Positions 42,846 through 48,038 of a DNA stretch of 64,000 nucleotides are shown here, in pieces (position 1 is the stretch's first letter; the number at the start of each line of letters is the position of its first letter). A program made the position numbers and the translations under genes. Where the stretch lies: the NCBI GenBank assembly GCA_022823865.1, contig JAJEHF010000065.1, positions 62,001 through 126,000 of the forward strand, in the 5' to 3' direction. This DNA is from Bryobacterales bacterium (lineage in GTDB: Bacteria > Acidobacteriota > Terriglobia > Bryobacterales > UBA6623). The notes under the pieces are model-generated. The model was not told the DNA's origin, searched no databases, and saw nothing but the letters and a program-made list of their open reading frames with translations.

Positions 42846-43078
42846 GTCTTGGGACGCTGCGCCAAGAGCCGGGTGGCTAGCCACTGGACGCAGGCGTCAC
42901 AAGGGGCTCGGTTTCCGCCAGACACGCCTCAGGCCTTCTCGCGCGCGGCGGCACCCGATGGTTGAGGGGAATGCCTGCGCTCCACCGCCCCCGACCAGTC
43001 CCTACATCCGGTACGTCTCCAGATGCGAGGAGGGAGCTTGCGACTGTTAGCATGGATTCGTAGTCCATCGAGACGAAA

Positions 43079-43474
43079 ATGAAGCGGCCAAAGTTCCAGC
43101 GGAACAACGTGAAGGTGCGCCGCGTGCGGAAGCCTCCTCCAGGAGTCGACCTTGCCGAGGTGGCCGATTCCTGTTGCTACGTTGGCAGTCCGTACCACAA
43201 GGATCGTCCGAGCTTTGCCGCGATGCCCCACAGCCGCAGGCCGGACGCCAGCATATGTCCCGGCCATCTGGCGACTCGCCAGGAGCTTGTTCAGGGCTGG
43301 CTTCGCGAAGCGATCAGGTGCGGCCAGGTGGGCGCATGGACCGGCGGTTACCCAAAATACGTTTGGTTCCGCGATGGCGAGACCGTGTACGAGGCACGGC
43401 AAGGATCACCTGGATCGGCCGAGTATCACGGCTACCCGCTTCAGCCCGAGCATGAAGTACGAGGCTTGGCATGA
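43079..43474 (+). CDS. Small basic protein of unknown function, first gene of a two-gene module
   Basis: 131 residues, with a strongly basic N-terminus (KRPKFQRNNVKVRRVRK) and a compact C-terminal part with GGYPKYVWFRDGETVYEAR and EYHGYPL. The latter pattern recurs, in my recollection, in small uncharacterised proteins of mobile or defence-linked gene pairs. Four Cys residues (32, 33, 60, 81) could bind metal. It overlaps the next gene by 4 nt (ATGA). No function is assigned. Confidence 0.65.
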   Translation: MKRPKFQRNNVKVRRVRKPPPGVDLAEVADSCCYVGSPYHKDRPSFAAMPHSRRPDASICPGHLATRQELVQGWLREAIRCGQVGAWTGGYPKYVWFRDGETVYEARQGSPGSAEYHGYPLQPEHEVRGLA

Positions 43475-44757
43475 GCGTTCAGCTGGACTTCGAGTGGATT
43501 GACGCGCCACGGTGTCCGGACTGGACGGAGTGGCGAACAATGGCAACCCTCTCAATCGAGGCGGGGACTTCCACAGTTACGTCGGTCCTCGACAATCGCA
43601 GTCACCTCCATCGCAACCACGTTGTGGTTCCTTTGCTGCACGTAGCAGAGTGGCTCGTCGCGAACTGGTGGCATCTTTGGCACGAATTCGAGGACCGTCG
43701 CTTGCACCGGCCCGGTTTCTCGGCCCGGCACAACCTCGCTACCGCCGGCGACGGGTTTCTCCTGCCCCAACTTGAGATCGTTCCGCTGTCGCGCAGGGTC
43801 GAATTGCGATGGCAGCGATGGAAGCCGCGTTACTCTCAGATCGAATTCATCGGTGAAGGTGAAATCCGGGTCGAGCGAGCCGAACTTGAGAACCAACTGC
43901 GGAACATCGTCGATGCCGTCCTCGAACGACTCCGCGAATCCACCGAAGGTGCCGTCGCAAGGGACGCCCTCGAGAGCGCGTGGAACGCCATTCATGATCT
44001 AGATGCGGATGAGCAGGAGTTCAGCCGTGCCGCAGCGCTGCTAGGGATGGATCCGTTCGACATCGCCGAAGCCGATGCGGGCAGGATTGCCAGATTCTGG
44101 GGAGAGGTCGATCCGGAGATTCGCGAAGAGGCCTTGGCAAGCGCCACCGCGGACACATTGTCCAATGTCCGAACATGGCTGCAGGAGGCCCTCCACAGCC
44201 TAGATCGACTGCAGGATGATCCCCGCTGGGATGGGCTCAGAGGGGAACTCCAGCTGCCGTCAACGGCCGAGCCGTGGGAGCAGGGCTACGAACTGGCAAG
44301 ATCGGCGCGCCAGCGACTGGGGCTGGGCGGTGAACGCATTGATTTCGGGTGCAATGGCACGCCGGCCTGTCACCACGAGGTCGTGGAGCAGCCTTCGAGG
44401 TGCCTCGAAGGACTTGTGGCGGCTCATGGTCCTGCGTGCGTCATCGCCCCTCGATCGGAGAACGGAGCACGGTTCCTGCGCGCTCGGGCGGTCGGGGACT
44501 ACTTGAGCCGTTCCGGGCCAGCGGCTGGAATCCTGAACTCGCTGCACACCGAGCGCCAAGCTAGGTCCCGGGCGTTCGCTGCGGAATTCCTTGCGCCGGC
44601 CAAGGCGCTGCGGGCAAGGCTGGGGAGTGAACTCGCAGATGAAGAGATCATTGAGAACCTCGGCGACGAGTTCGGTGTTTCGAGTCACGTCATAGCACAC
44701 CAAATGATCAACCACCAGGTGGGGACACCTCTTCTCGGTGACCTGTATCGGACCTGA
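43471..44757 (+). CDS. ImmA/IrrE-like protein with inactivated metalloprotease motif
   Basis: 428 residues. The N-terminal region has VPLLHVAEWLVANWWHLWHE (about 53-72). Residues 270-415 follow the ImmA/IrrE pattern: GYELARSARQRLGL, ..RFLRARAVGDYL, ERQARSRAFAAEFLAP, LGDEFGVSSHVIAHQMINHQ. The position that should read HExxH is R-A-V-G-D (339-343), so all three zinc-binding/catalytic residues are replaced. ImmA/IrrE proteins sense signals or cleave repressors; a dead copy may act as a sensor or scaffold. Coupled to the small basic protein upstream. Confidence 0.7.
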   Translation: MSVQLDFEWIDAPRCPDWTEWRTMATLSIEAGTSTVTSVLDNRSHLHRNHVVVPLLHVAEWLVANWWHLWHEFEDRRLHRPGFSARHNLATAGDGFLLPQLEIVPLSRRVELRWQRWKPRYSQIEFIGEGEIRVERAELENQLRNIVDAVLERLRESTEGAVARDALESAWNAIHDLDADEQEFSRAAALLGMDPFDIAEADAGRIARFWGEVDPEIREEALASATADTLSNVRTWLQEALHSLDRLQDDPRWDGLRGELQLPSTAEPWEQGYELARSARQRLGLGGERIDFGCNGTPACHHEVVEQPSRCLEGLVAAHGPACVIAPRSENGARFLRARAVGDYLSRSGPAAGILNSLHTERQARSRAFAAEFLAPAKALRARLGSELADEEIIENLGDEFGVSSHVIAHQMINHQVGTPLLGDLYRT

Positions 44758-44988
44758 CTGGGAGGGATGGTGTCAGTCGAGCTACCCGCCCGCCGCCAAG
44801 TGGCGACCGTTTCAGACTATGCAGCGCTCGCCCGTACTGGACTGCGCCGGCAGACGACGGCGCTCGCGATGCAAACGCTGCGTGCTCTCTGACCGCGCTC
44901 ACACAGGGGTGCAGACTACCGGATCGTCGACATGATCGCCGCGACAATCCGCAGCCCGCTGTTCCGCGAATCGACGCGTCCAGTCCAC

Positions 44989-46407: not shown

Positions 46408-46784
46408 CGCCGGCCAAGCCGGATCATTCGGCGAAGCGCGCGGCTGCTCCCAGCATCCGCTCTCGGCGAAGGATTTGGCACGGGTGACGGCCGGCGTGCG
46501 GGCGGAGTCTGAATCAGGCATTGACAGCGGCAGCGTTGGCCCGTAACCTGTGATTCCGGAGGGGCGAGGGCGCGCAATGGAGCGAGGAATCGCTCGACCA
46601 GCATCGGCAACCGCGCCAAGCAGGGCAGGTCGATGGCACGGCCTCGGGCCGGCCAGACGGTCACCGTCGCTATTCGATCACGAATCCCGAAGCGGACCCT
46701 AGAGACTCGAGCCACCCGCCAATGATTAGAGAGCACTGCGGCATGGGCCAACGCGAACATACCGGCACCACGATTTCTCCGCCG
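46408..46784. other. Intergenic leader region of the sugar-acid dehydratase operon
   Basis: No gene recognised. It carries the consensus -35 promoter at 46521-46549. Confidence 0.5.
46521..46549 (+). promoter_or_regulatory. Promoter with consensus -35 box
   Basis: TTGACA (46521-46526), a 17-bp spacer and TAACCT (46544-46549). It is the only perfect -35/17-bp arrangement I found and lies 235 bp before the dehydratase start. Confidence 0.5.
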
Positions 46785-48038
46785 ATGAGTCGGCGGGATC
46801 TTCTCGGCTTCGCGGCGGTTCTCGCCGGCTCGGCGGCAGCGGCTCCCGCGCAGCAGCAGTGGCCGGTCGAAACCGATCTTGAGATCACGGACGTCCGCGT
46901 GGTGAGGACCCGCCCGAAGAACCCCCTGCCTACCTACGAGCCGACCCCGGGCTCGTACTGGGCGACTCGCGAGGCGGCCCGGCCGATCGAGGTCCATCCC
47001 GAGTACACCGGCAAGCGCGGCCCGGGATCCAAGTGGATGCCGGACCGGTCCCTCGGCGCTGTCACTGTCGAGATCAGCACGAACAAGGGACTGAAGGGCT
47101 ACGGCCGGGCCGGCTCCGCCGGGGGCCCCTTCGTCGTTCCTGCCCTCAAGAAGCTGTTGGTCGGCAAGAACCCGCTGGATGTCGAGCGCCTCTGGGACGT
47201 GATGTGGCGAGCGACGCTGTTCTACGGACGCGCCGGGGCGGTGGTGCACGCGATCAGCGGCGCGGACCTCGCCCTGTGGGATCTGGTCGGCAAGGCATTC
47301 GGAGTCCCTGTCTACGACCTTGTCGGCGGCAGGACTTGGGAGCGCATTCCCTGCTACGCCACCGGGAACGACGTCGAGCAAAGCCTCGAATTCGGCTATA
47401 CGAAGGTCAAGCTGGCACTCCAGCACGGCCCGCCCGACGGCCGCGAGGGCCTGAAGAAGAACGTCGAGCACGTCAAGCGGACGCGCGAGCTGGTCGGCCC
47501 GGACGGCGAGATCATGATCGACTGCTGGATGGCGCTGTCGGAAGCCTACACGATCCAGCTGGCCGAGGAACTGGAACCGTACCGGGTGTACTGGCTGGAA
47601 GAGGTCTTGATGCCGGACGAGTACAAGGGGTTCGGGCGCCTCAACTCCCAGATCACCTCCACGTTCCTGGCGACCGGCGAACACGAGTACACGCGCTACG
47701 GTTTCGGCCGGCTGGCCCATTACGGGGCGGTCGACATCTGGCAGCCGGACATCAACTGGTGCGGCGGCATGAGCGAGATGAAGAAGATCGGCGCCATGGC
47801 CCTGGAGCAAGGGATCCCGGTGATTCCGCACGCAGGCGGCGCTACCGACTGCATCCACTACCTCGCGGCCCAGCCCCAGATGACCTGGGCCGAGACCACG
47901 ATTCCCGCTCCGGGCGGCCCGCCGGAGGTCTACGAGATGTTCGCCGAGCAGCGCCTCATGAGCCGCGGGCCTGAGGGTGTGTACATCCAGCCCCCGGAAG
48001 AGCCTGGATTCGGCTGGAATATCGAGGTGGCGGACTGA
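46785..48038 (+). CDS. Tat-exported L-rhamnonate dehydratase-like enzyme (MR/MLE family)
   Basis: 417 residues. Tat signal SRRDLLGFAAVLAGSAAAAPA, then an enolase-superfamily enzyme close to L-rhamnonate dehydratase: KVKLALQHGPPDG, metal ligands in IMIDCWMAL, WLEEVL and ATGEHEYTRYG, WQPDINWCGG and a catalytic His in VIPHAGG. It would dehydrate an acid sugar to a 2-keto-3-deoxy acid. Export of such an enzyme is unusual. ATG 46785 gives the shortest pre-signal region; ATGs at 46722 and 46743 are in frame. First of three paralogues in one operon. Confidence 0.8.
   Translation: MSRRDLLGFAAVLAGSAAAAPAQQQWPVETDLEITDVRVVRTRPKNPLPTYEPTPGSYWATREAARPIEVHPEYTGKRGPGSKWMPDRSLGAVTVEISTNKGLKGYGRAGSAGGPFVVPALKKLLVGKNPLDVERLWDVMWRATLFYGRAGAVVHAISGADLALWDLVGKAFGVPVYDLVGGRTWERIPCYATGNDVEQSLEFGYTKVKLALQHGPPDGREGLKKNVEHVKRTRELVGPDGEIMIDCWMALSEAYTIQLAEELEPYRVYWLEEVLMPDEYKGFGRLNSQITSTFLATGEHEYTRYGFGRLAHYGAVDIWQPDINWCGGMSEMKKIGAMALEQGIPVIPHAGGATDCIHYLAAQPQMTWAETTIPAPGGPPEVYEMFAEQRLMSRGPEGVYIQPPEEPGFGWNIEVAD

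Follow-up and report, generated by a model that had tools for sequence, protein, structure and literature searches.

We found that two adjacent genes of the window (the whole 64,000-nucleotide stretch of Bryobacterales DNA analysed here), which we call S and L, form a real, conserved and mobile two-gene module that occurs across phyla. The pair is probably a toxin-first toxin-antitoxin (or toxin-immunity) module, with S the putative toxin and L a putative non-proteolytic antitoxin. The initial annotation had proposed a toxin-antitoxin or immunity function. That reading is best supported by the fold of L, the pattern of gene loss, the mobility of the pair and the replacement of S by TumE at one plasmid locus, but S itself resembles toxins only weakly. 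The pair has the general traits of type II systems, being a compact, coupled two-gene operon that is mobile and patchily distributed. It is most likely undescribed so far, with S as a new candidate toxin family and L as a putative antitoxin architecture that includes a dead ImmA domain. We found no description of the S-L pair, or of an ImmA/IrrE antitoxin without HExxH, in the portion of the literature covered, which takes in PMC10233336 but few subscription papers and no preprints.

The two coupled open reading frames on the + strand that the initial annotation had reported are present and overlap by four nucleotides (Table 1), and the motifs it had quoted, GARFLRARAVGDYLS, ERQARSRAFAAEFLAP, FGVSSHVI and YVWFRDGETVYEAR, are all there. 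S starts with the basic segment MKRPKFQRNNVKVRRVRK. Upstream of the pair lies a divergent secA and downstream a sulfatase gene, both named from reading of their sequences, and the surroundings of this copy are ordinary chromosomal genes. The product encoded at 46722-48038 of the window, to the right of the sulfatase gene, reads like a member of the enolase superfamily and has tandem paralogues there at about 56 % identity. A second, divergent SecA-like gene is found in three of 11 genomes of the genus (G007:C146, G008:C1 and G010:C36; 46-48 % identity over the best piece).

Table 1. Positions in the window of the S-L pair, its conserved residues and domains, and the cassette that carries it.
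Feature	Position	Strand	Remarks
Gene S	43079-43474	+	ORF, 131 aa; proposed toxin
Gene L	43471-44757	+	ORF, 428 aa; proposed non-proteolytic antitoxin/immunity protein
ATGA overlap, S stop / L start	43471-43474	+	4 nt, read from the ORFs
S codon His40	43196-43198	+	Invariant, 29/29 S; Lys41 in 27/29
S codon Cys60	43256-43258	+	Invariant, 29/29 S
S Trp96 (29/29) to Glu105 (27/29)	43364-43393	+	Strand-turn-strand core; AF2 model and alignment
S C-terminal motif YHGYP	43424-43438	+	Y116 28/29, P120 28/29
L residues 1-155, Whirly-like domain	43471-43935	+	Nearest solved structure CdiI 5ffp; boundaries approximate
L residues 156-262, helical middle	43936-44256	+	Secondary structure of AF2 model
L residues 263-428, ImmA/IrrE/CapP fold without metal ligands	44257-44754	+	VIA-align and hhalign
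L residues 339-343, RAVGD, HExxH position	44485-44499	+	Arg339 invariant, 36/36
L Gln363, third zinc-ligand (Glu) position	44557-44559	+	Invariant, 36/36
Presence/absence cassette, about 2.04 kb	42874-44913		Approximate; against empty sites in G001 and G004

The larger protein had been described as ImmA/IrrE-like. This holds for the last 40 percent of L but not for its first 155 or so residues, which form a different domain. The Pfam family Peptidase_M78 matched the window L at 18.5 bits (E 0.0019), below the curated cut-off of 22, and two relatives, L009 and L081, passed that cut-off with 23.9 and 29 bits. We then aligned a profile of 21 L proteins with 12 HExxH-bearing ImmA-type proteins using hhalign, which gave a probability of 98.7 and an E value of 3e-16 and set RFLRARAVGDYL of L against the RF...AHE..H.L stretch of the metal-bearing proteins. 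In this alignment the H, E and H of HExxH fall on R339, A340 and D343 of L, which bears out the earlier claim that HExxH had been replaced by Arg-Ala-Val-Gly-Asp. The third ligand, Glu, falls on Q363, a position obtained by counting back from the FLxP motif. The AlphaFold2 model of L (17 sequences, mean pLDDT 91.7) independently matched solved ImmA/IrrE-type structures. A Foldseek search of the PDB returned CapP first (E 1.7e-3, probability 1.00), and over residues 263-428 VIA-align gave a Z of 11.6 for CapP 7t5t (143 residues, 3.0 A), 10.0 for PprI 8sln, a structure with ssDNA, and 9.6 for IrrE 3dti. The predicted fold of L is therefore that of ImmA/IrrE, as had been claimed, rather than an unrelated one.

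The loss of HExxH is family-wide and not an isolated mutation. We collected 37 distinct near-full-length L proteins, partial and broken copies having been left out beforehand, which 90 % clustering reduced to 36 non-redundant ones. None of the 36 has HExxH. At position 343, 32 of them carry Asp or Glu, and F369 and P376 are invariant. The invariant list of the L alignment contains no alternative set of His, Glu or Asp in the C-terminal domain. Because Arg339 and Gln363 are kept in every one of these proteins and HExxH in none, the loss of the metal site is old and its replacement constrained. Since all four ligand positions are replaced, this domain is very unlikely, judging from sequence, to act as a zinc protease, and neutralisation would therefore proceed by binding. 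Of the original interpretation of the ImmA part, the dead domain and the conserved coupled module stand, but with no member of the family retaining the metal site, L is unlikely to regulate by ImmA-type proteolysis.

A further 23 loci from the phylum search (L020-L042) were not counted as L, their matches being weak, confined to the C-terminal domain and mostly to Xre-ImmA proteins. HExxH is present in 16 of these, 12 of which served as the metal-bearing yardstick for hhalign. The other seven (L032, L036, L037, L040, L020, L025 and L034) also have no HExxH; they are Xre-ImmA-type Acidobacteriota proteins with an architecture unlike that of L, and look like a second, independent loss of the metal site.

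For the N-terminus of L (about residues 1-155) the best match listed by VIA-align was the immunity protein CdiI of Burkholderia dolosa (5ffp, Z 6.8, 120 residues, 3.6 A). Next, at an equal Z of 4.9, came plant Whirly and the CdiI of Enterobacter cloacae (4ntq), and the matches at Z 4-4.9 included further Whirly folds and PUR proteins. Values of Z below 8 may reflect merely a common arrangement. CdiI of E. cloacae protects against a BECR-fold RNase, and the CdiI proteins of BECR toxins in general are described as binding the active site (PMC9086364). The middle of L (156-262), a region barely probed, had no informative solved relative among the VIA-align matches listed. Sequence-profile matches of L in the PDB to apolipoprotein E and SOX were rejected as noise from helical or unrelated stretches. 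A truncated L consisting of the N-terminal domain alone is found in Acidithiobacillus caldus plasmid pTcM1 (L051, 7989-8588), where it stands without S and before an N-6 DNA methylase gene.

S has no family in Pfam, NCBIfam, PADLOC or PHROGs, and we regard it as an unannotated candidate toxin family. Among the S proteins of 29 pairs, three residues (His40, Cys60 and Trp96) are invariant; Tyr34, like Tyr116 and Pro120, is kept in 28, and Gly82, like Lys41 and Glu105, in 27. We know of no BECR active site with residues like the S invariants H40, C60 and W96. In the AlphaFold2 model of S (13 sequences, pLDDT 82.2) a helix precedes a small sheet. A Foldseek search with this model gave nothing significant (best E 0.37, RelE), and the best match in a viral fold library had an E of 0.48. 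VIA-align listed 14 entries with Z of at least 2, ten of which are toxins of the CdiA-CT, RelE or ParE kind. The best was CdiA-CT 5t87_G at a weak Z of 3.6, below 4 (57 residues, 2.4 A), and RelE/ParE toxins scored Z 2.2-2.8, which is weak and may reflect a common arrangement. Chain G of 5t87 is taken as the toxin from its length and from PMC9111745. BECR CdiA-CT toxins are reported to align with one another at 2.4-3.5 A with 7-17 % identity and to be recognised mostly from structure only (PMC9086364). From the model, S likely has a toxin fold. PDB sequence-profile matches of S to TetR and hemerythrin were rejected as noise.

At every locus that has the two genes, they share a strand and S immediately precedes L. 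This gene order was judged from a separate listing of loci, since the set of 29 pairs used for the distances required S upstream within 300 nt. In that set, which leaves out the near-duplicate of the window's own pair (30 pairs before), the genes are coupled by overlap or short gaps. The distances among S proteins correlate with those among L proteins (r = 0.90), and none of 2000 shuffles gave a correlation as high.

We classified 33 loci of the order, from 257 genomes in draft assemblies. Both genes are present in 18, three of which (G006:C26, G007:C155 and G532:C72) have an S match without the first 18-28 model positions. Five loci have intact L only: S is absent in G005:C190 and G029:C8, and broken by a stop or frameshift in G082, G622 and G584. 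No assessable locus among the 257 genomes has intact S without L. At one locus where L is missing (L117, G069:C274), S is itself cut in the YHGYP motif near its C-terminus by an apparent transposase gene. The remaining nine loci are decayed or at a contig end (G014, G503, G549, three places in G583, G588, G081 and G006:C123). With one more L-only case from the phylum sample (G149), the tally is six loci with L only against none with intact S only (two-sided sign test 0.03, calculated by hand), a comparison of few loci in which stops and frameshifts may be draft errors. Such an asymmetry is what would be expected if S were a toxin dependent on L as its antitoxin. Near the S-less L of G005:C190 (L084, 5270-8545) we also observed a Macro-domain protein, a Fic/Doc-like fragment and a Gp49 (HigB-like) gene, which together make up a toxin-antitoxin-like cluster.

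L relatives were found in eight of 100 genomes, that of the window (G000) included; within the order, 22 of 257 genomes have one at E 1e-20. In a phylum sample of 396 genomes full-length L is present in a few other families, and the 29 positive genomes mostly have matches to the C-terminal domain only. Plasmid searches with six L queries recovered full-length L in Massilia, Rhizobium, Allorhizobium, Sphingomonas, Tistrella and Agrobacterium, as well as a fusion of the L body in R. etli; a match in R. etli Mim1 was set aside as a C-terminal L fragment only. The S-L pair is also present on three IMG/VR contigs, one with endolysin and tail-fibre genes, one with a portal gene and one with a serine integrase. 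No phage record in INPHARED matched an L relative (L010 as query).

The window genome holds three S-L pairs of three distinct subtypes. A near-identical L (99.5 % to that of the window) is found in another Bryobacterales contig. The window L groups with that of G267, from another family (45 % identity), and not with other copies of its own genus, as expected of horizontal transfer. In the congeners G001 and G004 both flanks are kept (96 % and 90-92 % identity) and about 100 bp stands in place of about 2.04 kb, while G005 carries the cassette at the same site as the window copy. S and L have a low GC3, 0.69 compared with 0.88 for secA and 0.81 for the sulfatase gene. Terminal repeats of the insertion of about 2.04 kb were sought and none were found.

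A survey of neighbourhoods for links to prophages or defence islands had been suggested. By raw count, four of the seven plasmid records with full-length L have defence genes within 12 kb. In Massilia dptFGH lies directly upstream of the pair, in Rhizobium Pop5 methylase, RecB-like and ubiquitin-like genes are near L, in Agrobacterium Mrr-type genes flank L on both sides, and in R. etli IE4771 a CBASS cyclase is near the L fusion. The Sphingomonas, Allorhizobium and Tistrella records have no recognisable defence genes near L.

TumE-TumA is an experimentally proven, translation-targeting toxin-antitoxin system (PMC10584680). Plasmid pRetIE4771b of R. etli IE4771 encodes a TumE gene (PF20126, E 9.1e-7, above the cut-off), and five bases after it a 529-aa protein in which a winged helix (HVO_A0114/HTH_5) is fused to an L body (L082, 11135-13098). 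The fusion keeps R339 and Q363, and its L body matches model positions 55-430, the start of the Whirly-like domain being missing or changed. Lichenicola has this winged helix too (42 % identity), there as a separate, overlapping partner of a TumE gene. Taken together, the R. etli fusion and the Lichenicola partner indicate that, at one locus, the antitoxin component of a proven toxin-antitoxin family has become joined to the L body. We found no L beside TumE within the fetched loci of 11 TumE places in 10 genomes (297 Acidobacteriota genomes searched). The window pair differs from TumE-TumA in having neither TumE (S has no Pfam match) nor a winged helix; what they share is the R. etli L body joined to a TumA-like winged helix behind TumE. 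This TumE / L fusion is a natural hybrid of two systems, located within 12 kb of the CBASS cyclase.

The nearest known kind to S-L is RosmerTA, which likewise consists of two genes, a variable toxin and an antitoxin with an ImmA/IrrE-fold domain. According to PMC10440598, RosmerTA (toxin RmrT and antitoxin RmrA; NetFlax hub D25) has the toxin first in 58 %, is found in a phage among others, and RmrA, which has an ImmA protease domain, pairs with different toxins. S-L may work like RosmerTA. However, RmrA contains a protease domain and often an N-terminal HTH, whereas L has neither HExxH nor an N-terminal HTH but a Whirly/CdiI-like N-terminus, and S differs from RmrT. The PADLOC RmrA models matched residues 359-416 of L weakly (E 0.003). 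Because the protease feature fails, we did not file L as RosmerTA.

The zinc peptidase CapP, of the CBASS pair CapH/CapP, acts on a repressor. Among the structures listed its 7t5t matches the L C-terminus best, but L has no zinc ligands and no HTH repressor as its partner. COG2856-Xre pairs also place an ImmA-fold protein in mobile two-gene operons. Those are described as having an HEXXH motif and as associated with RelE and PIN toxins (PMC2701414); in contrast to them, L has neither HEXXH nor an Xre partner or fusion, and Pfam gave no HTH family match, Xre included, for the window S or L. To CdiA-CT/CdiI the pair has a possible structural resemblance, of the L N-terminus to CdiI 5ffp and 4ntq and, weakly, of S to CdiA-CT 5t87. 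It differs in having no CdiA/CdiB delivery proteins, as none of their genes were seen in the S-L neighbourhoods read, and in the fusion of its immunity-like domain to a pseudo-ImmA domain.

Several points count against a toxin-antitoxin function. S has no significant similarity to any toxin, and its invariants fit no known BECR active site. The loss asymmetry comes from few loci of draft assemblies, several of them ending at contig edges. The link between TumE and L is one locus, whose L body is short of the first 54 or so aligned residues, and the 11 Acidobacteriota TumE loci have no L neighbour. L is also unusually large for an antitoxin. S and L could equally be two subunits of one complex. 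In such a regulator or defence complex S would serve as an adaptor, basic and nucleic-acid-binding, with L as effector or sensor, and the more frequent loss of S would reflect no more than its small size or its dispensability. The basic start of S, the larger size of L, the PprI-ssDNA (8sln), Whirly and PUR structures among the PDB matches of L and the defence genes of the plasmid records are consistent with this. However, L has no recognisable catalytic site and its best N-terminal match is an immunity protein, S has the conserved polar residues H40, C60, E105 and Y116 expected of an active site, and in R. etli a proven toxin family replaces S. We therefore consider such a complex unlikely.

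That S-L is a stand-alone remnant of a contact-dependent or polymorphic toxin-immunity system, of the orphan CdiA-CT/CdiI type, appears improbable. Both S and the L N-terminus do resemble parts of such systems, but in the loci read S is not preceded by any domain for secretion or delivery, L has roughly three times the size of a CdiI and carries the pseudo-ImmA domain in addition, and the two genes are coupled by overlap or short gaps. Hardly credible at all is that L cuts S or a repressor, as ImmA and CapP do, through a non-canonical site. The fold is kept and R339, Q363, F369 and P376 are invariant, but the ligand positions are replaced in all 36 proteins with no other invariant His/Glu/Asp set to take their place, and the window has no HTH repressor gene alongside the pair.

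We thus favour a toxin-first toxin-antitoxin module. S would probably belong with the small toxins of the Barnase/EndoU/Colicin/RelE type and most likely halt translation as a ribonuclease. L would bind and block S, and the N-terminal domain, which is Whirly-like and CdiI-like, is the most likely part to do so. The ImmA/IrrE-fold domain of L would probably act as a scaffold, as a sensor from which S is released, or in autoregulation through contact with DNA. A more specific proposal, which we regard as doubtful, is that the L body is a portable, enzymatically dead sensor of phage- or damage-derived single-stranded nucleic acid, in which binding of ssDNA would free the toxin and which could be plugged into different toxins. 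One antitoxin would then join Whirly-like and pseudo-PprI domains, both folds linked to ssDNA binding. If true, this would be a modular abortive-infection switch that works without proteolysis, with S in most bacteria and with TumE, via the TumA fusion, in Rhizobium.

ImmA/IrrE domains recur in antitoxins and defence regulators, and the usual assumption is that they act by proteolysis. A widespread family with an invariant Arg and Gln in place of the metal site would be evidence that neutralisation or sensing by this fold does not require cleavage. S adds a new candidate toxin family and L a partner body that is also joined to TumE-TumA, and the module offers a short, directly testable step from sequence to bench.
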